From Xanthomonas sp. F10 (lineage in GTDB: Bacteria > Pseudomonadota > Gammaproteobacteria > Xanthomonadales > Xanthomonadaceae): 64,000 bases of DNA. The stretch is taken from contig NZ_JACHNP010000001.1 in the NCBI RefSeq assembly GCF_014206815.1, positions 648,456 through 712,455 of the forward strand, read 5' to 3'. Below the pieces are notes generated by a model, which searched no databases, was not told the origin of the DNA, and saw only the letters and a list, made by a program, of their open reading frames with translations. The position numbers were made by a program, and so were the translations under genes. Shown one piece after another: positions 27,348 through 37,093 of this stretch (positions within the stretch are counted from its first letter, which is position 1; every line of letters starts with the position of its first letter).

Positions 27348-28343
27348 TCACAGCCATCTTGCCCGCTTGAACGCCACATACAGCGCCACACACACCGCGG
27401 CGACACCGCCGACCATCAGCGGGTAGGCCCACGGCCAGTCCAGTTCCGGCATCTGCTTGAAGTTCATGCCGTACCAACTGGTGATCAGGGTCGGGGCGGC
27501 GAGCAGGGCAGCCCAGGCGCCGAGGCGCTTGACCGTCTCGCCTTGCGCCAGGGTGACCAGCGACAGGTTCACGCTCAGCGCGGTGCCGAGCATCTCGCGC
27601 AGGGTGTCGATGGCGTCGTTGGTGCGCACCGCGTGGTCGAGCACGTCGCGCACGTACAGCCGCACTTCCTCGGCGATCAGCGGGCCGGGGTGGCGCTTGA
27701 GGTGCGCCAGCACGTCCTGCAGCGGCGCCACGCCCAGGCGCATCTGGTTGAGCTCGCGCTTGAGTTCGTACAGCCGGATCGCGGTGTCGCGGCGGTACGC
27801 CTCGGCGAAGATGTCGGCCTCCAGCCGCTCCAGGCTCTGCCGGAAGGCGTCCAGGATCGGCTGGTAGTTGTCCACCACGTAGTCCAGCACCGCGTACAGC
27901 GCGTACGACGGGCCCAGTTGCATCAGCGAGGCCTCGCGTTCCAGCCGCTCGCGCACCGGCGCATAGGGCAGCGAGGCGCCGTGGCGCACGGTCAGCAGGA
28001 AGCGCTCGCCGAGGAAGGCGTGGGTCTCGCCATAGACGATGCGCTCGTCGATCACCTGCGCGGTGTGCACCGCCAGGAACAGCGAATTGCCGAAGGCCTC
28101 GACCTTGGGCCGCTGGTGCGCCTTGCGGGTGTCCTCGATCGCCAGTTCGTGCAGTTGGAATTCTTCCTTGAGCTGCTGCAGCACCGCGTCGCCGGGCTCG
28201 TACATGCCGACCCAGACAAAGCCGTCGTCGTGGCCGGCCAGCACGTCGCTGATCTGCTCCAGGGCGATGTCGTGGCGACGGCCGTGGCCGTCGTAGTGCA
28301 CGCAGTTGATGACGCAGGCGGGATTGGCGGGCGCGGAGGCCAT
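27348..28343 (-). CDS. corA: Magnesium/cobalt transporter CorA
   Basis: A 331-residue divalent cation channel. It has a long cytoplasmic N-terminal domain with a coiled stretch (about residues 150-250), then two C-terminal helices. The selectivity motif GMN follows the first helix (SWYGMNFKQMPEL), and the tail is basic (FKRARWL), as in all CorA proteins. It forms a pentameric Mg2+ uptake channel in the inner membrane. The ATG at 28343 is preferred; the frame stays open far upstream but overlaps the next gene in a different frame. Confidence 0.93.
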   Translation of the reverse strand: MASAPANPACVINCVHYDGHGRRHDIALEQISDVLAGHDDGFVWVGMYEPGDAVLQQLKEEFQLHELAIEDTRKAHQRPKVEAFGNSLFLAVHTAQVIDERIVYGETHAFLGERFLLTVRHGASLPYAPVRERLEREASLMQLGPSYALYAVLDYVVDNYQPILDAFRQSLERLEADIFAEAYRRDTAIRLYELKRELNQMRLGVAPLQDVLAHLKRHPGPLIAEEVRLYVRDVLDHAVRTNDAIDTLREMLGTALSVNLSLVTLAQGETVKRLGAWAALLAAPTLITSWYGMNFKQMPELDWPWAYPLMVGGVAAVCVALYVAFKRARWL

Positions 28344-28393: not shown

Positions 28394-29692
28394 TCAGGGC
28401 CGCGGGCGAGGGCGGGTGAGCGCCCAGGCCAGCGCCGCGTGCACCGGCAGCAACAGCGCGATCCATTGCAGGTTGAATTGCGGCTGCAGCATCGACAGCC
28501 AGTGGATCAGCAGCGCGGCGCCGGCCAGGGCCACCACCAGCCACAGCAGCACGTCGAACCAGCGTCCGGGGCGGCGCCCGCGCAGGATCGCCAGCCCGCC
28601 GACCAGCAGCGGCAGGCACAGCGGATCCAGCAACAGCAGGTTGCGGTTGCCCCAGGCGGCGCGATGCTCGCTGAAGCCCCACAGATACAGCAGGACCGCA
28701 CCGCCCAGCGCGCACAGCAGCCAGAACGGCAGCGCCAGCGCGGCCAGCCAGCGCGGCCGGCGGCCCAGCGCGAGCACGCCCGCCGCCGCGGCCAGCCCGA
28801 CCAGCAGCCAAGGCCACCAGTGCCGCAGCTGTTCCGGCGGTTCCGGCGGCAGCCGCTGCGGCAGCAATTGCTGGCGCGCCTGCACCAGCGGGCGGCCGGC
28901 GCTGTTGCGCACCTCGTTCAGGCTCTCGGCCAGGCGCATCGGCACGAAGGCCTCTTCCCAACGCGACAGCGGCTTGTCGGCGTACGGGCCCAGGCCCAGG
29001 TCGAAGCCCAGCCACATCCACGGCGCCGGCGAGGCCAGGCGCACCGATTCGCTGCGATAGGTGTTGCCGCGCGAACGGCCGGACAGTTGCGCGTGCAGCG
29101 CCCCGCCCATGGCCCGGTCCAGCGCGTCGCGGACCATCGTCGCGCAGTTGGCGGTGTAGTAGTCGTAGCGGTAGCGCGCGTTCTCCGGGCGCGCACGCCA
29201 GGCCAGCGCCTGCTGCAGCGCGCGCGCCTGCGCCGGCGCCAGGTCCAGCCACTGGATATCCACGCCGCGGCCGGCTTCGCGGTACTGCTCCAGGTCCTCC
29301 TGCAGCGGCAGCGCGACCAGGTAGTAGCGCATGTCGCCGGCGGCGAAGCGGCCGACGAAACCGGGTTCGCTGGGGTCGAAGAAGCCGAAGTTGTACGAGG
29401 TGGCCTGGCCCGTGCGCGGGTCGAGCACCACGATGGCGTCATGGCCGAAGCGCTCGAAGAACACTTCGCCTGGCTGCATCGTGGCCACGCCGATGCGCGG
29501 CGCCGGGTCGCTGGCGTCGGCTGCGGCCGTCGCGGCCCCTGGGGGCGGCGTGGGCGTCGGCGCGGCGGCCAGCGGCGGCGGAGCCGCCGGATCCGCGGAC
29601 GGGGTCTGCGCGAAGGCCAACCCGGCCCACAGCGCCAGCAGCATCCCCAGCCAGCACGCCGCGCTGGCGCGCGGCACGGTGCGCGCGCTCAA
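28394..29692 (-). CDS. DUF4105 (Lnb-type) membrane protein, possible lipoprotein N-acyltransferase
   Basis: A 432-residue protein with a signal peptide (residues 1-28, AFA|Q), a Pro/Ala linker, a periplasmic DUF4105 domain (about 65-270), and about five C-terminal membrane helices. The domain has the family's conserved His (H84, FERFGHDAIVV) and Cys (C183, YDYYTANCATMVRD), which look like a thiol catalytic pair. The family includes Lnb, a lipoprotein N-acyltransferase of Bacteroides; transfer of that function to this protein is inference. The TTG start overlaps the corC stop (TTGA). In many gammaproteobacteria lnt follows corC, so the location supports a lipoprotein-related role. A canonical Lnt may still exist elsewhere in the genome. 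Confidence 0.8.
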   Translation of the reverse strand: MSARTVPRASAACWLGMLLALWAGLAFAQTPSADPAAPPPLAAAPTPTPPPGAATAAADASDPAPRIGVATMQPGEVFFERFGHDAIVVLDPRTGQATSYNFGFFDPSEPGFVGRFAAGDMRYYLVALPLQEDLEQYREAGRGVDIQWLDLAPAQARALQQALAWRARPENARYRYDYYTANCATMVRDALDRAMGGALHAQLSGRSRGNTYRSESVRLASPAPWMWLGFDLGLGPYADKPLSRWEEAFVPMRLAESLNEVRNSAGRPLVQARQQLLPQRLPPEPPEQLRHWWPWLLVGLAAAAGVLALGRRPRWLAALALPFWLLCALGGAVLLYLWGFSEHRAAWGNRNLLLLDPLCLPLLVGGLAILRGRRPGRWFDVLLWLVVALAGAALLIHWLSMLQPQFNLQWIALLLPVHAALAWALTRPRPRP

Positions 29693-30570
29693 GCGCCGTC
29701 CTGCGCGGCGGGCGGCAGGATGGTGACGTGGAAGGCCTGCACCCGGCGCGCGTCGGCCCGCGCCACGCGGAATGCGAACCGCCCCAGGGTGAGTTCCTCG
29801 CCGGTCTCGGGCAGGTGGCCGATCGCCTCGGTGACCAGTCCGCCGACGGTGTCGTAGTCGTCGTCCGGGAAGTCGGCGCCGAAGCGCTCGTTGAAATCCT
29901 CGATCGGGGTCAGCGCGTCCACCACGTACTGGCCGTCGGCCTGCGCGGCGATCAGCGAGGCCTCGTCCTCGGCGTCGTCATGCTCGTCGTCGATGTCGCC
30001 GACGATCTGTTCCAGCACGTCCTCGATGGTGACCAGGCCGGCCACGCCCCCGTACTCGTCGACCACGATCGCCATGTGGTTGCGCGAGAGGCGGAACTCC
30101 TTGAGCAGGACGTTGAGCTTCTTCGATTCGGGAATCAGCACCGCCGGGCGCAGCAGTTCGCGCACCGTGCCCGGACCGTGGTCGGCGACCACGCCGCGCA
30201 GCAGGTCCTTGGCCAGCAGGATGCCGAGGATGTCGTCCTTGTTCTCGCCGTGCACCGGGAAGCGCGAATGGCCGGATTCGACCACCTGTTTCATCAGGTC
30301 GAGGAAGCGCGCCTCCACCGACAGCGACACCATCTGTGCGCGCGACACCATCACGTCGCCGACGGTGAGTTCGGAGACCGACAGCGCGCCCTCCATCATG
30401 CGCAGCGTGTCGGCGGCGATCAGGCCATCGTGCTGCGCGTCGCGCAGCACCTCGACCAGATCGTCGCGGGTGTGCGGGTCGCCGGAGAACACCGAGGTCA
30501 GGCGTTCCAGCCAGCCGCGGCGCTTTTCGTGGGATTCCGGGGAGGAGCTACTCGGTCCGTCTTCTGACAT
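29689..30570 (-). CDS. corC: CorC/YbeX-type CBS-domain protein
   Basis: A 293-residue cytoplasmic protein: tandem CBS domains (about residues 65-190; ELTVGDVMVSRAQM, DEYGGVAGLVTIEDVLEQIVGDI) and a C-terminal CorC_HlyC domain (about 205-290). Known family members influence Mg2+/Co2+ efflux or ribosome-linked physiology (YbeX). The ATG at 30570 (MSEDGPSSSS) was chosen over one 42 bases upstream because it gives the usual CorC start. It belongs to the conserved miaB-ybeZ-ybeY-ybeX neighbourhood. The DUF4105 gene overlaps its stop by four bases. Confidence 0.92.
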   Translation of the reverse strand: MSEDGPSSSSPESHEKRRGWLERLTSVFSGDPHTRDDLVEVLRDAQHDGLIAADTLRMMEGALSVSELTVGDVMVSRAQMVSLSVEARFLDLMKQVVESGHSRFPVHGENKDDILGILLAKDLLRGVVADHGPGTVRELLRPAVLIPESKKLNVLLKEFRLSRNHMAIVVDEYGGVAGLVTIEDVLEQIVGDIDDEHDDAEDEASLIAAQADGQYVVDALTPIEDFNERFGADFPDDDYDTVGGLVTEAIGHLPETGEELTLGRFAFRVARADARRVQAFHVTILPPAAQDGA

Positions 30571-30681: not shown

Positions 30682-31299
30682 TCAGCCGCCCTTGGGCGGC
30701 GTGTGCAGCACGTCCGGCGCCGGCGGCGCGCCCGGCTCCTCGGGCAGGTCCAGGCTGTAGCTGCAGCCGGCCAGGGTCTTGCCCGGGTGCGATTTCACCG
30801 TGGACACGCTGAGGATGATCGACTCGATCATCGGCTCGCCGGTCTTGGGGTCGCGCACGTCGCGGCTGAGCACTTCGCGGCCGAACATGGCCTTGTCCGG
30901 GGTGTCCACCGCCGCTTCCAGGTTCAGGCGCTTGGCCAGCGGCCGCGGGTCGGGCAGGTCCAGGATCGCCATCACGCTGGCGCCGGAAAAGGCGATGCGC
31001 TCGCTGCTGTAGCCGAACACCTGGATCGGCCGGGTCAGCGCGTATTCGGTCATGAACAGGTTGGACTGCGGCAGCGGCCGCCAGCCGTGCGCCACCGCCT
31101 TCAGCGGATCGGCCAGCAGCGGCGCCAGCGCGGTGAAGTCGGCCACGTGCTGGCGGCATTCCAGCAGCGCCGGCAGGTCGATGGCCGCAGTGGCGGCAGG
31201 TGCTGCAGCGGGCGGCGCGGGTGGAGCGGGTGGCGTCGCGATGGCCGCCGCCGGAGCGGCGCAGGCCAGCGCGAGCAGGACGAGCGAGGGACGGATCAA
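30682..31299 (-). CDS. Periplasmic protein of unknown function
   Basis: A 205-residue protein not assigned to a family. It has a signal peptide (LVLLALACAAPAAAIA), an Ala/Pro linker, and a compact domain rich in beta-type sequence (YALTRPIQVFGY, SGASVMAILDL, ESIILSVSTVKS) with two Cys (CRQHV and AGCSYSL) that could form a disulfide. It ends in a Pro-rich tail. The only reasonable start is TTG at 31299, with a GAGG ribosome site. It lies between ybeY and corC on the same strand. The codon pattern is typical of real genes here. Confidence 0.72.
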   Translation of the reverse strand: MIRPSLVLLALACAAPAAAIATPPAPPAPPAAAPAATAAIDLPALLECRQHVADFTALAPLLADPLKAVAHGWRPLPQSNLFMTEYALTRPIQVFGYSSERIAFSGASVMAILDLPDPRPLAKRLNLEAAVDTPDKAMFGREVLSRDVRDPKTGEPMIESIILSVSTVKSHPGKTLAGCSYSLDLPEEPGAPPAPDVLHTPPKGG

Positions 31300-31469: not shown

Positions 31470-31955
31470 TCAGCGCTCGCCGGCGTAGGGATCGGAGACG
31501 CCGAGGTCGGCGAGGATCTCGCGTTCCAGTTGCTCCATCGCCTCGGCCTCCTTGTCGTCCTCGTGGTCCCAGCCGAGCAGGTGCAGCACGCCGTGCACGG
31601 TCAGGTGCGCGTAGTGCGCGTTGAGCGGCTTGTCCTGTTCGGCGGCTTCGCGTGCCACGACCGGCGCGCAGATCACCAGGTCGCCGAGCAGCGGCAGCTT
31701 GACGCCTTTCGGCAGCCCCTCGGGCAGTTCCGCCGGGAAGCTGAGCACGTTGGTGGCGTAGTCCTTGCCGCGGTAGTGCAGATTCAGGGCGCGGCCTTCG
31801 CGGTCGTCGACCAGGCGGATCGCCAGGTCGGCCTCGCGGATGCGGCCCTTCAGCGCCGCGGCGACCCATTTGCGGAAACTCGTCGCCGCCGGCAGTCCGG
31901 CACGGGGCAGGGCGTAGCTGACGCCGACATCGAGGCGGACGGGACCTTTGGTCAT
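31470..31955 (-). CDS. ybeY: Endoribonuclease YbeY
   Basis: A 161-residue metalloprotein. The zinc motif is [14 protein letters not shown] (HxxxH...H), and the block TNVLSFPAE is also conserved. YbeY takes part in 16S rRNA 3'-end processing and 70S ribosome quality control. The ATG at 31955 ([10 protein letters not shown]) matches the family's start; a longer upstream frame is not conserved in character. It forms part of the conserved phoH-ybeY-corC neighbourhood. Confidence 0.93.
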
Positions 31956-32117
31956 GGCAGACGGCCGAGTACAGCGGTGGGGGACACAGTATCGCGCGTG
32001 CGGCGGCTCAGGGCGACCTTGCATCGTCGGCGCTGAGGCGGGCTTGCCTCGCACCAGCGTTCCCGCATGCGCGGCGCAACCGAACCGCACAGGTGGTCGG
32101 TGTGCGCGGTGTGCGGC

Positions 32118-32684
32118 TCAGGTCACGCAGGCGACCAGGAACAGCAACGGGGTCTTTTCGTCGTCGACGCGGTAGGCCACGCTGCCCATCGGGCCTCGCT
32201 GGCACTGCGGGTTGTCGCGCCGGATCTCCACCGTGGCGGCGAAGCGTGCCGAGGCCGGGAGCCATACCGCAGCCTGGCCGTGTGCGAGCAGGTCGCCGAC
32301 CAGGTAAAGGCTGTCCGCCGGCACCTGCTTGTAGGCCAGCGCATTGCAGCCGAAGCGGTCGCGCGTCGCGCCGGTGGCGTCGGCCGCATCGAGCAGCGCC
32401 TGCGCCCGGGTGCCGGCGATCCACGCCAGGCGCCGCGCTTCGTCGTCGTGCGGCGCGGTCGGCGCGGCGCGGGCGATGGCTGCCGCGCGTTCGAGGACGT
32501 CGCGCGGCAGGCCGATGACGGCGCTGTCCTGCACGATCGACACGCACGGCGCGGTCAGCGATTGCGCCAGGGCGACGCGGTGTGGCGCCGGATCCTGCGC
32601 TGGCGTCCGCTCGGGCGTGTGGCCGCCGGCACTGCCGGCGACGCCGAGCAGCGTTCCCAGCAGCGCCGGCCATGTGCGGATCAC
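32118..32684 (-). CDS. Secreted protein of unknown function, coupled to phoH
   Basis: A 188-residue protein not assigned to a family. It begins with a short signal-like segment (TWPALLGTLLGVAGSAGG), then a helical domain with two Cys (APCVSIVQ and RFGCNALAY) and near the end a further pair (PQCQRG, VACVT). The GTG start at 32684 overlaps the phoH stop by four bases (GTGA), so it is probably translated after phoH. It lies between phoH and ybeY, which usually adjoin. An envelope role is likely from the signal, but nothing more can be said. Confidence 0.68.
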   Translation of the reverse strand: MIRTWPALLGTLLGVAGSAGGHTPERTPAQDPAPHRVALAQSLTAPCVSIVQDSAVIGLPRDVLERAAAIARAAPTAPHDDEARRLAWIAGTRAQALLDAADATGATRDRFGCNALAYKQVPADSLYLVGDLLAHGQAAVWLPASARFAATVEIRRDNPQCQRGPMGSVAYRVDDEKTPLLFLVACVT

Positions 32685-33667
32685 GCCGACGGGCCGCTGG
32701 CACGGTCGACGACGTCGCGCTTCTCGTAGGCGTTCACGATGCGCGCCACCAGCGGATGCCGGACCACGTCGCGCGCCTCGAAGAAGGTGAAGCTGACCCC
32801 GTCCACCTCGTGCAGCACCTCGATGGCATCGCGCAGGCCGGACTTGACGTGCTTGGGCAGGTCGATCTGGGTCAGGTCGCCGGTGACCACGGCGGTGCTG
32901 CCGAAGCCGAGGCGGGTCAGGAACATCTTCATCTGCTCGATGGTCGTGTTCTGCGCTTCGTCCAGGATCACGTAGGCGTCGTTGAGAGTGCGTCCGCGCA
33001 TGTACGCCAGCGGCGCGATCTCGATGACATTCTTCTCCAGCAGCTTGACCACCTTCTCCACGCCCAGCATCTCGTACAGGGCGTCGTACAGCGGGCGCAG
33101 GTAGGGGTCGACCTTCTGGCTGAGGTCGCCGGGCAGAAAGCCCAGCTTCTCGCCGGCTTCCACCGCCGGGCGCACCAGGATCAGCCGTTGCACCCGCGAT
33201 TCGTTCAGCGCTTCCACCGCGCTGGCCACGGCCAGGAAGGTCTTGCCGGTGCCGGCCGGGCCGATGCCGAAGTTGATGTCGTGGGTGGCGATCTGGTGCA
33301 GGTACTTGGCCTGGTTGGCGCCGCGGCCGCGCACCGTGCCGCGCTTGACCTTGATCGCCACCTCCTGCGGTTGGTAGGCGCGCTGCGCCACCTGGTCGAC
33401 ATTGGACTGGTTGAGCCGCAGGTGGATTTCCTGGTCGTCGAAGACGACGTGGTCGGCCTCGGCGTACAGCGCCTGCAGCAGCCGCTCGGCCGCCGCCACC
33501 GCCTGCTCCGCCCCGGTCACCCGGTACACGTTGCCGCGGTTGGAGATCTCCACGCCCAGGCGCAGTTCGATCTGCCGCAGGTGCGCGTCGAACGGACCGG
33601 CCAGGTTGGCCAGGCGTTCGGTGTCGGCGGGATCCAGGGTGAAGTCGCGTTGCGCAGGGGTGGTCAT
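32681..33667 (-). CDS. phoH: PhoH-family ATPase (YbeZ)
   Basis: A 328-residue protein with an N-terminal KH-like nucleic-acid-binding part and a PhoH ATPase domain. Walker A is GPAGTGKTF, Walker B is YVILDEAQNTT, and sensor motifs follow (VVTGDLTQIDLP; VRPAVEAGEKLGFLPGDL). YbeZ acts together with YbeY in RNA metabolism. The ATG at 33667 (MTTPAQRDF) is the conserved start; a longer frame to 33922 crosses a non-coding stretch. miaB usually precedes it directly; here an arsR/osmC/ACT module intervenes. Confidence 0.92.
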   Translation of the reverse strand: MTTPAQRDFTLDPADTERLANLAGPFDAHLRQIELRLGVEISNRGNVYRVTGAEQAVAAAERLLQALYAEADHVVFDDQEIHLRLNQSNVDQVAQRAYQPQEVAIKVKRGTVRGRGANQAKYLHQIATHDINFGIGPAGTGKTFLAVASAVEALNESRVQRLILVRPAVEAGEKLGFLPGDLSQKVDPYLRPLYDALYEMLGVEKVVKLLEKNVIEIAPLAYMRGRTLNDAYVILDEAQNTTIEQMKMFLTRLGFGSTAVVTGDLTQIDLPKHVKSGLRDAIEVLHEVDGVSFTFFEARDVVRHPLVARIVNAYEKRDVVDRASGPSA

Positions 33668-34012
33668 GGCGGGCGCACGCCGCCAGCGGCAGCGTCGAAA
33701 ACGAGGGGCGCAAAGGGTAGCGCGCAGCGCGTAGCCGGGCCAGTGAAGGGCGCGCGGCGACGGCGTCGGCGTGTGCACGCGGGCGCGATCGAATGCGCCC
33801 TGCGGGCCTGTGAGCACCCCGCCGCGACCCGCACGACGCGGCGATGGCAACGTTGTCCACAACGGATGTGGATCGATTATCCGAAAGCCTGTGGACAACC
33901 GAGCGAACGCCTTGCGACGCAAGGCGCTGCCCTGTGGTGGCGAAAAAAACCGCAGCGATCCGGCCGGCGCATGGCCGAGGCGTGCGGACCTTTTGGAAGG
34001 TTGCGGCGGGCC
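33668..34012. other. Intergenic region upstream of phoH with DnaA-like boxes
   Basis: About 345 bases without a convincing gene. It contains two inverted 9-mers TTGTCCACA (33853-33861) and TGTGGACAA (33890-33898) that resemble the GC-rich type of DnaA box, in a locally AT-richer patch. The phoH promoter should lie here too. Confidence 0.45.
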
Positions 34013-34996: not shown

Positions 34997-35657
34997 GAGC
35001 GAAGCCACGCCGCTGTCCCGTGTCGCCTTCCTGCTGGGCGACGCCGCGCGCAGCCGCATGCTGGCGGCGTTGATGGGCGGACAGGCACGTACCGCCACGG
35101 AACTGGCCCTGGATGGCGGGGTCGCACCGTCCACCGCCAGCCGGCATCTGACGCAGCTGGTCGAGGCCGGCCTGCTCGCGGTGGTGCGCCAAGGCCGGCA
35201 TCGCTATTTCCGCGTGGCCGATGCGCAGGTTGCCGCGGCGGTCGAGGCGATGATGGGACTCGCGCCGCCACAGACCCGGCGGGTCGGCCCGGCGGATCCC
35301 GGCCTGCGCCGGGCGCGGGTGTGCTACGACCATCTTGCCGGCGAGCTGGCGATCCGCTGGCGCCAGCAGATGGAGACGCGCGGGTACCTGCTGTGCAGCG
35401 ACGGCATGGTCCTGAGCGCGTCGGGCGTGGCCTGGTGCGCGGCGATCGGCATCGACGTGGCGGCCTTGCGCGGCTCCCGGCGGCCGCTGTGCCGGCCGTG
35501 CCTGGACTGGAGCGAGCGTCGCGACCACGTCGCCGGCGCGCTGGGCAGTGCCTTGCTCGCGCATCTCCTCGGCACCGGCCTTGCGCGGCGGGTGCCGGAT
35601 TCGCGGGCCGTGCAGATCGGCGCGCGCGGCGAACGGTTCCTCAGCGCGCTCGACTAA
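34995..35657 (+). CDS. ArsR-family regulator with C-terminal Cys-containing extension
   Basis: A 220-residue protein: winged helix-turn-helix (about residues 10-85, [18 protein letters not shown] as recognition region) and a ~130-residue C-terminal domain with a CRPC pair near residue 166 and [16 protein letters not shown]. The metal site of classical ArsR (ELCVCDL) is absent, so it may sense redox state or a small molecule. It is divergent from the osmC-ACT pair and probably controls it and itself via the inverted repeats in the 71-bp gap. Its stop overlaps the convergent miaB stop by three bases. No ribosome site precedes the ATG, in line with a leaderless mRNA. Confidence 0.87.
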
Positions 35658-37093
35658 GCCGTGCCCACTCGGGCCGCGGCGTCGTCCTCGGCCAAGTGCA
35701 GGCGGCCGCGCAGCGAGTTGCTCAGCGCCTCGGTGATCGTCACATCGACGAACTGGCCGATCAGGCGCGGGTGGCCGGGGAAGTTCACCGAGCGCATGTT
35801 CTCGGTTTTGCCGGTCAGCTCGGCCGGGTTCTTCTTCGACGGACCTTCCACCAGCACGGTCTGCACGCTGCCGATCATGCCCTGCGAGATCTGCTGCGCA
35901 TGCGCGTTGATGTGCGCCTGCAGCCGCGCCAGCCGCGCGTGCTTGACCGCCTCGGGGGTGTCGTCTTCCAGGTCGGCGGCGGGCGTGCCCGGGCGCCGCG
36001 AATAGATGAAGGAGAAGCTCTGGTCGAAGCCCACGTCCTCGATCAGCTTCATGGTCTTGTCGAAGTCGGCGTCGCTCTCGCCGGGAAAACCGACGATGAA
36101 GTCCGAACTTATCGAGATGTCCGGACGCACCGCGCGCAGCTTGCGGATCTTCTGCTTGAACTCCAGCGCGGTGTAGCCGCGCTTCATCGCGCTGAGGATG
36201 CGGTCGCTGCCGGCCTGCACCGGCAGGTGCAGGTAGTTGGCCAGCTGCGGCACGTCGCGGTAGGCCTCCACCAGCGAGTCGCTGAACTCCAGCGGATGCG
36301 AGGTGGTGAAGCGGATGCGGCCGATGCCCTCGATCTGCGCGATGCTGCGGATCAGCAGGCCCAGGTCGGCATGTTGCGCTTCCTCGCCGGCCTCGGCGTC
36401 GGCGTAGGGGCCGCGGTAGGCGTTGACGTTCTGGCCGAGCAGGTTGATCTCGCGCACGCCCTGCGCGGCCAGTTGCGCCACTTCCACCAGCACGTCCTCG
36501 AACGGCCGGCTGATCTCCTCGCCGCGGGTGTAGGGCACTACGCAGAACGAGCAGTACTTGGAGCAGCCTTCCATGATCGACACGAAGGCCGACGGGCCTT
36601 CGGCGCGCGGCTCCGGCAGGCGGTCGAACTTCTCGACTTCGGGGAAGCTGATGTCCACCTGCGACTTGCCCGATTCGCGCCGCGCGCGGATCAGCTCCGG
36701 CAGCCGGTGCAGGGTCTGCGGGCCGAACACCAGGTCCACGTAGGGCGCGCGCTTGACGATGGCCTCGCCTTCCTGCGACGCCACGCAGCCGCCAACGCCG
36801 ATGATCACTGGCTTGCCGCCGGCCTTCAGCGCCTTCCAGCGGCCGAGCTGGCTGAACACCTTCTCCTGCGCCTTCTCGCGGATCGAGCAGGTGTTGACCA
36901 GGACCACGTCCGCTTCTTCGGGGTTGTCGGTCAGTTCCAGACCTTCGGACGCGGCGAGCACGTCGGCCATCTTGGCCGAGTCGTACTCGTTCATCTGGCA
37001 ACCGTGGGTCTTGATGTACAGCTTGCCGCGCACCGGCGCGGGTGCGGCGGCGGGGCCGGCGGAGGGCAGGGGATGCAGGACGGTCCCGGGCAT
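35654..37093 (-). CDS. miaB: tRNA (i6A37) methylthiotransferase MiaB
   Basis: A 479-residue radical-SAM enzyme that adds a methylthio group to N6-isopentenyl-adenosine 37 of tRNAs. The N-terminal cluster cysteines are in [21 protein letters not shown] and [11 protein letters not shown]; the radical-SAM triad is [18 protein letters not shown]-terminal TRAM domain follows (about 405-470). It is the head of the conserved miaB-ybeZ-ybeY-corC neighbourhood, here interrupted by the arsR/osmC/ACT module. The 3' end overlaps that of arsR by three bases. Confidence 0.95.

Follow-up and report, generated by a model that had tools for sequence, protein, structure and literature searches.

Lnt combines an LNT_N domain with a nitrilase domain and works through the nitrilase catalytic triad, and a CYE motif is important in this enzyme. 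A second lipoprotein N-acyltransferase activity, that of Lnb, which attaches a third acyl chain to lipoproteins, has been published for Bacteroides (Armbruster et al. 2024, PNAS, through the citing paper PMC12994826). According to the available text of PMC12994826 (2026), the DUF4105 clade is primarily, not exclusively, found in Bacteroides, and in three genomic contexts Lnt has repeatedly taken the place of DUF4105 proteins. The same text places both DUF4105 and TseH among the permuted NlpC/P60 clades, and DUF4105 is one of the newly found papain-like families in the accessible part of PMC10318531. For Xanthomonas, the available text of PMC10368991 (2023) states that Lnt could not be identified in X. 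campestris B100; diacyl anchors were therefore modelled in that structural study.

Here we describe the window, a stretch of 64,000 nucleotides from Xanthomonas sp. F10 (contig NZ_JACHNP010000001.1, positions 648,456 to 712,455). It carries a gene whose product has Lnb_N and 5TMH_Lnb domains in place of the LNT_N and nitrilase domains of Lnt (Table 1). On its sequence and position, this gene very probably encodes the lipoprotein N-acyltransferase of the Xanthomonadales, predicted to be a divergent periplasmic Cys/His enzyme of the Lnb type that replaces Lnt.

Table 1. Features of the lnb-like gene and its surroundings (positions in the window).
Feature	Positions	Strand	Basis
lnb-like gene, 432 aa, Lnb_N + 5TMH_Lnb	28394..29692	-	ORF list, Pfam, full Lnb model
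Signal peptide or signal anchor at the N-terminus (residues 1-28)	29609..29692	-	sequence, hydropathy, model helix 11-27
Lnb_N periplasmic domain, residues 71-198	29099..29482	-	Pfam
Five-helix membrane domain, residues 293-426	28415..28816	-	Pfam, hydropathy, model helices
H84 codon, predicted catalytic His	29441..29443	-	37/37 order members, 3/3 Bacteroidota proteins identical
C183 codon, predicted nucleophile, NC motif	29144..29146	-	37/37 order members, 3/3 Bacteroidota proteins identical
H343 codon, invariant His of membrane domain	28664..28666	-	order and Bacteroidota alignments
corC/ybeX, overlapping lnb (TTGA)	29689..30570	-	ORF list, overlap bases, Pfam
ybeY	31470..31958	-	ORF list, start inferred; tblastn finds ybeY in other loci
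ybeZ/phoH-like	32681..33670	-	ORF list, start inferred; tblastn finds it in other loci
miaB	35654..37093	-	ORF list
corA, directly downstream of lnb	27348..28343	-	Pfam CorA

The first-pass annotation had described a DUF4105 protein with the layout of Lnb, and this description was borne out by Pfam, hydropathy and alignment. The ORF starts with TTG, and residues 9-27 of its product form a hydrophobic, signal-peptide-like stretch followed by AFA-Q, the cleavage site being read by eye. The Lnb_N match, which contains H84 and C183, scored 54.2 bits against a Pfam gathering cut-off of 22.2 (E 1.7e-14), and that of 5TMH_Lnb, at residues 295-363, scored 34.3 bits against 25.2 (E 2.9e-8); hydropathy placed five hydrophobic segments inside residues 292-426. 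With an E value of 3.8e-43 for the full Lnb model NF051878, the domain and model matches of this protein are far beyond chance. Pfam found neither LNT_N nor nitrilase domains in it, and it did not qualify as Lnt under TIGR00546.

Like Bacteroides Lnb, the protein has a signal sequence, an Lnb_N domain, a membrane domain and a His/Cys pair, and the two are of similar length. In BLASTP it was 30% identical to the Lnb of B. finegoldii over 348 aa (E 8e-37), across both domains. H84, C183 and H343 coincided with residues of the Bacteroidota Lnb proteins in the alignment, H84 and C183 being identical in all nine of its rows. Its score with NF051878, the NCBIfam Lnb equivalog model, was 147.8 bits, far under the cut-off of 550, and we therefore regard it, by architecture and homology, as a divergent Lnb and not as the NCBI equivalog. 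B. finegoldii Lnb passed this cut-off (667.4 bits); one protein each of Parabacteroides (398.1) and Hymenobacter (219.9) fell below it, like the window protein. Unlike Bacteroides Lnb, the window gene comes from the Gammaproteobacteria and lies beside corC and corA, whereas the Lnb gene of B. finegoldii and P. distasonis adjoins an alkaline-phosphatase-family gene and secA.

Among close relatives, identity over the best segment of the protein was 94% for Xanthomonas sp. NCPPB 1128, 85% for Xanthomonas sp. AmX2 and 82% for X. albilineans; the remaining Xanthomonas records of the 80 kept lay at 71-77%. H84, C183, H343, N349 and P357 were invariant in all 37 aligned members of the order, the window protein included and the repeats L030 and L053 (of L081 and the window) removed, and in all three Bacteroidota proteins. 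The invariant residues H343, N349 and P357 suggest that the membrane domain may bind substrate or lipid.

We then asked where Lnt stands in this genome (4.78 Mb, rated 100% complete). The statement of the first-pass annotation that no Lnt is encoded next to the gene was correct and extends to the whole genome: no protein exceeded the TIGR00546 cut-off, LNT_N had no match, and a normal lnt elsewhere, which the annotation had named as evidence against its idea, was not found. TIGR00546 gave four weak matches, the best with 32.5 bits. These were an NAD synthase and the amidohydrolase PRK10438, which we take to be YafV (both over the cut-offs of their own families), and a protein that best matches AguB but lies under the AguB cut-off; the fourth is of the nitrilase type and has no close family.

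On the minus strand, miaB is followed in turn by ybeZ, ybeY, a 205-aa ORF, corC, lnb and corA, and further ORFs separate some of these genes; the names miaB, ybeZ/phoH-like and ybeY are presumed. The order miaB-ybeZ-ybeY-corC-lnb implied by the first-pass annotation held, but the cluster is interrupted, the 205-aa ORF between ybeY and corC being one example. That ORF (30682-31299, minus strand) had no Pfam match, and a relative of it was found in 59 of the 80 named loci. CorC_HlyC and CBS matches in Pfam backed the identity of corC, whose extent in Table 1 holds if the inner ATG is taken as its start. As also described earlier, the stop of corC overlaps the TTG with which lnb begins, and the overlap spans four bases (TTGA). 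In 76 of the 80 named loci, corA was also present within the locus, which spans at most about 11 kb.

The position behind corC was kept with great regularity. All 80 named loci had lnb after corC: in 77 of them the first possible lnb start fell in the range from 26 bases upstream to 1 base downstream of the corC end, in three it fell 105-428 bases downstream, and the 4-base overlap recurred in 49 when starts were chosen mechanically. The same arrangement was seen in 37 of 38 loci (from 37 genomes) of the order sample plus our own genome; in the exception, L091, miaB was directly upstream instead. It was also seen in 28 of 30 loci from further genomes of the order, picked for low Lnb scores or for families not yet covered; in the two misses, the locus stops at lnb itself. 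In the outgroup, lnt followed ybeY-corC in 20/20 loci examined, which represent 19 families and derive from the 23 best-scoring Lnt matches, not from a random draw. Since lnt follows ybeY-corC in the outgroup and lnb follows corC in the order, we consider the two genes to share one common slot, as the first-pass annotation had proposed in assigning the DUF4105 protein to the lnt position, and their products would catalyze the same reaction.

Next, we compared the distribution of the two enzymes. Among 60 relatives, Lnb_N was found in 57 and LNT_N in 18, the three strongest LNT_N matches belonging to the three relatives that lack Lnb_N; none of the 19 genus members among them had LNT_N. In the class sample (229 genomes), Lnt exceeded the cut-off in 207, and the Lnb model matched in 19. 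Three of these matches were nearly full length, all in our own family and none with Lnt over cut-off, and the other 16 covered the N-domain only, in open frames of 612-710 aa. A further observation is that 19 of the 229 genomes had neither full-length Lnb nor Lnt over cut-off, several of them being small or incomplete. Of the 299 genomes of the phylum sample, seven, all of our own order, had an Lnb match of nearly full length and 12 had N-domain matches; the remaining 292 gave no full-length match.

Within the order sample (200 genomes), an Lnb match, in some cases a fragment, was found in 191, and in 156 of the 159 near-complete genomes, which are not independent trials because the genomes are related. 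The three near-complete genomes without Lnb (G040, G050 and G052) all carried a typical Lnt (298-305 bits, CYE motif), which follows corC; six further genomes without Lnb were 65-88% complete. Lnt exceeded the cut-off in 24 of the 200 genomes, with three typical and 21 divergent proteins. Lnb and a typical Lnt were not found together in any genome of this sample, an exclusion whose Lnt side, with G052 set aside, consists of one genus (two genomes). The idea that an Lnb-type enzyme acts as, or alongside, Lnt is thus supported computationally in the form "instead of", by the lack of Lnt, the homology, the slot and the exclusion.

Xanthomonas lipoproteins could instead stay diacylated, with Lnt simply absent and the DUF4105 protein serving another role in the envelope. 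A LolF-like state goes with tolerance of diacylated lipoproteins, and our own genome has a single LolF-like transporter. One LolCE-type protein exceeded the cut-off there (G000:C1:1621855-1623084, minus strand), as expected for a LolF-type system; the term "LolF-like" is that of the available text of PMC8739992. The study of X. campestris B100 points in the same direction, but it predates the 2024 report of Lnb and the word "DUF4105" is absent from its available text (PMC10368991). A full-length Lnb homologue, however, occupies the lnt slot, and the near-complete genomes of the order without Lnb are only those with a typical Lnt. We therefore regard diacylated lipoproteins as improbable here.

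The structure model brought up another function. It was of good confidence (pLDDT 86.9, pTM 0.81, from 61 sequences), with H84 in strand 80-90 and C183 as the first residue of helix 183-194. The fold search gave no match at E 0.001 or better: the best solved structure was TseH (6v98; E 8.2e-3, probability 1.00, TM 0.50 by target length) and the second-best match had an E of 0.22. A sequence search of the PDB gave chance-level matches alone (best E 0.27). The soluble domain thus resembles TseH and the Tox-Act1 permuted NlpC/P60 effectors in fold. The TseH chain matched has 183 residues and therefore no five-helix membrane domain, and TseH is not encoded in the slot behind corC.

Our own genome contains two further DUF4105 proteins, and the domain alone therefore does not fix the function. 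The first (G000:C1:136854-137327, minus strand; L045 4681-6306) had an Lnb_N match of 170.6 bits and no 5TMH_Lnb match. It adjoins, by eye, a gene for a lipoprotein-like protein with an alpha/beta-hydrolase motif, and an intact Lnb_N match of comparable strength was present in 16 of 19 genus genomes. The second (G000:C1:1385946-1386464, minus strand; L046 4251-6533) has 760 aa, with DUF7844 ahead of Lnb_N. With neither 5TMH_Lnb nor a match to the full Lnb model, both were rejected as Lnb candidates.

These proteins bear on the possibility that the window protein is a permuted NlpC/P60-class acyltransferase or lipase acting on another lipid, such as a phospholipid, like the relatives of TseH and Tox-Act1. 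The fold match, a weak Pfam match to TseH (15.4 bits, under the cut-off of 27), the lipid-targeting nature of the related clades in the available text of PMC12994826 and the two paralogues without a 5TMH_Lnb match would fit this function. Of the three DUF4105 proteins, however, the window protein alone matches the full Lnb model and sits in the lnt slot, and we rate action on another lipid as slightly less probable still than diacylated lipoproteins.

With Lnb as the N-acyltransferase, the protein would be anchored in the inner membrane by its five C-terminal helices. If the mechanism is analogous to that of Lnb and of the permuted NlpC/P60 acyltransferases, Cys183 would be the nucleophile and His84 the base. 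An acyl-thioester would form on Cys183 from a phospholipid, and the diacylated Cys would then receive the acyl chain on its amino group. We infer each of these points, namely the enzyme activity, the acyl donor, the thioester step and the triacylation of lipoproteins in Xanthomonas sp. F10.

The 21 divergent proteins of the order sample (L106-L126; 147-224 bits) are Lnt-like membrane nitrilases, 15 of them in open frames of 820-1079 aa; the one that was scanned, L107, has LNT_N and nitrilase domains. All 21 genomes also have an Lnb match, that of G311 being weak and partial only. In place of CYE they read CLD, CYD, CFD, CWE or a near variant. In the Lnt tree, six of the 21 were included, and they stood apart from typical Lnt, although on long branches; three of the 20 outgroup loci (L235, L237 and L242) had been dropped from this tree by a motif filter. 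Without a corC neighbour or CYE, and separate in the tree, these proteins were rejected as true Lnt. That such a nitrilase performs the N-acylation, with Lnb as an accessory, is very improbable: it exceeds the lnt cut-off in 21/200 genomes of the order, but it was not found in our own genome, corC was present in 0/21 fetched loci (two of them short), and 0/21 read the CYE of the three typical Lnt proteins by a simple pattern (the frame choice for L123 being unsure).

Finally, we analyzed the lineages of the order that carry typical Lnt. GyrB was used because 16S genes were recovered from just 5 of 22 genomes; 28 of the 30 genomes searched entered the tree, G045 (whose sole match scored lower and is probably ParE) and G702 (whose match was split) being left out. 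Family f6 (G040 and G050) fell inside the order (96/96), in a tree that resolves this node and not its base. In a CorC tree (single gene, 281 columns, 39 rows; the order is represented by families f1, f3, f4, f6, f7 and f12 plus G052), f6 nested inside the CorC clade of the order (97/96) and grouped with families 1, 3 and 12, and the lnb-carrying families f4 and f7 lay outside this group (97/84). The neighbour, therefore, was swapped and not corC. The CorC tree is modest evidence that lnb was present first and that f6 later returned to lnt at the same spot.

G052, labelled as family f8, was rejected as a natural swap from Lnb to Lnt: in the GyrB tree it falls outside the order with a long branch, and its CorC, with only 29% identity, has a branch length of 4. 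As both proteins fall far outside the order, this genome is probably misplaced in it; it was kept in the raw tallies and dropped in interpretation only. Its Lnt also falls far outside the order (loci L037, L049 and L276). We lean towards a model in which a non-homologous Lnb of the Bacteroidota type took over from Lnt on the spot directly behind corC and became the sole N-acyltransferase of the order, with a later reversal in f6.

The general kind of exchange is already known. The main text of PMC12994826, as available, has no word beginning with "xanthomon", and its figure 4B and tables may include the case. Our literature search, of partial coverage, found no paper naming this gene as the N-acyltransferase of Xanthomonas and no experimental N-acylation data for the order. 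What is new, to our knowledge, is that Lnt would be replaced throughout the order and that Xanthomonas lipoproteins are predicted to be triacylated.

The gene is a candidate answer to an open point, namely that Xanthomonas has the Lol machinery, yet no Lnt has been found. If Lnb acts here, Xanthomonas, Stenotrophomonas and Lysobacter would triacylate their lipoproteins with an enzyme that has no relation to Lnt; this would bear on models of lipoprotein sorting and on inhibitors aimed at Lnt. The in-place swap would be a natural test of the functional equivalence of two unrelated enzymes; if both the swap and its reversal in f6 are true, the two would be freely exchangeable in one envelope pathway.
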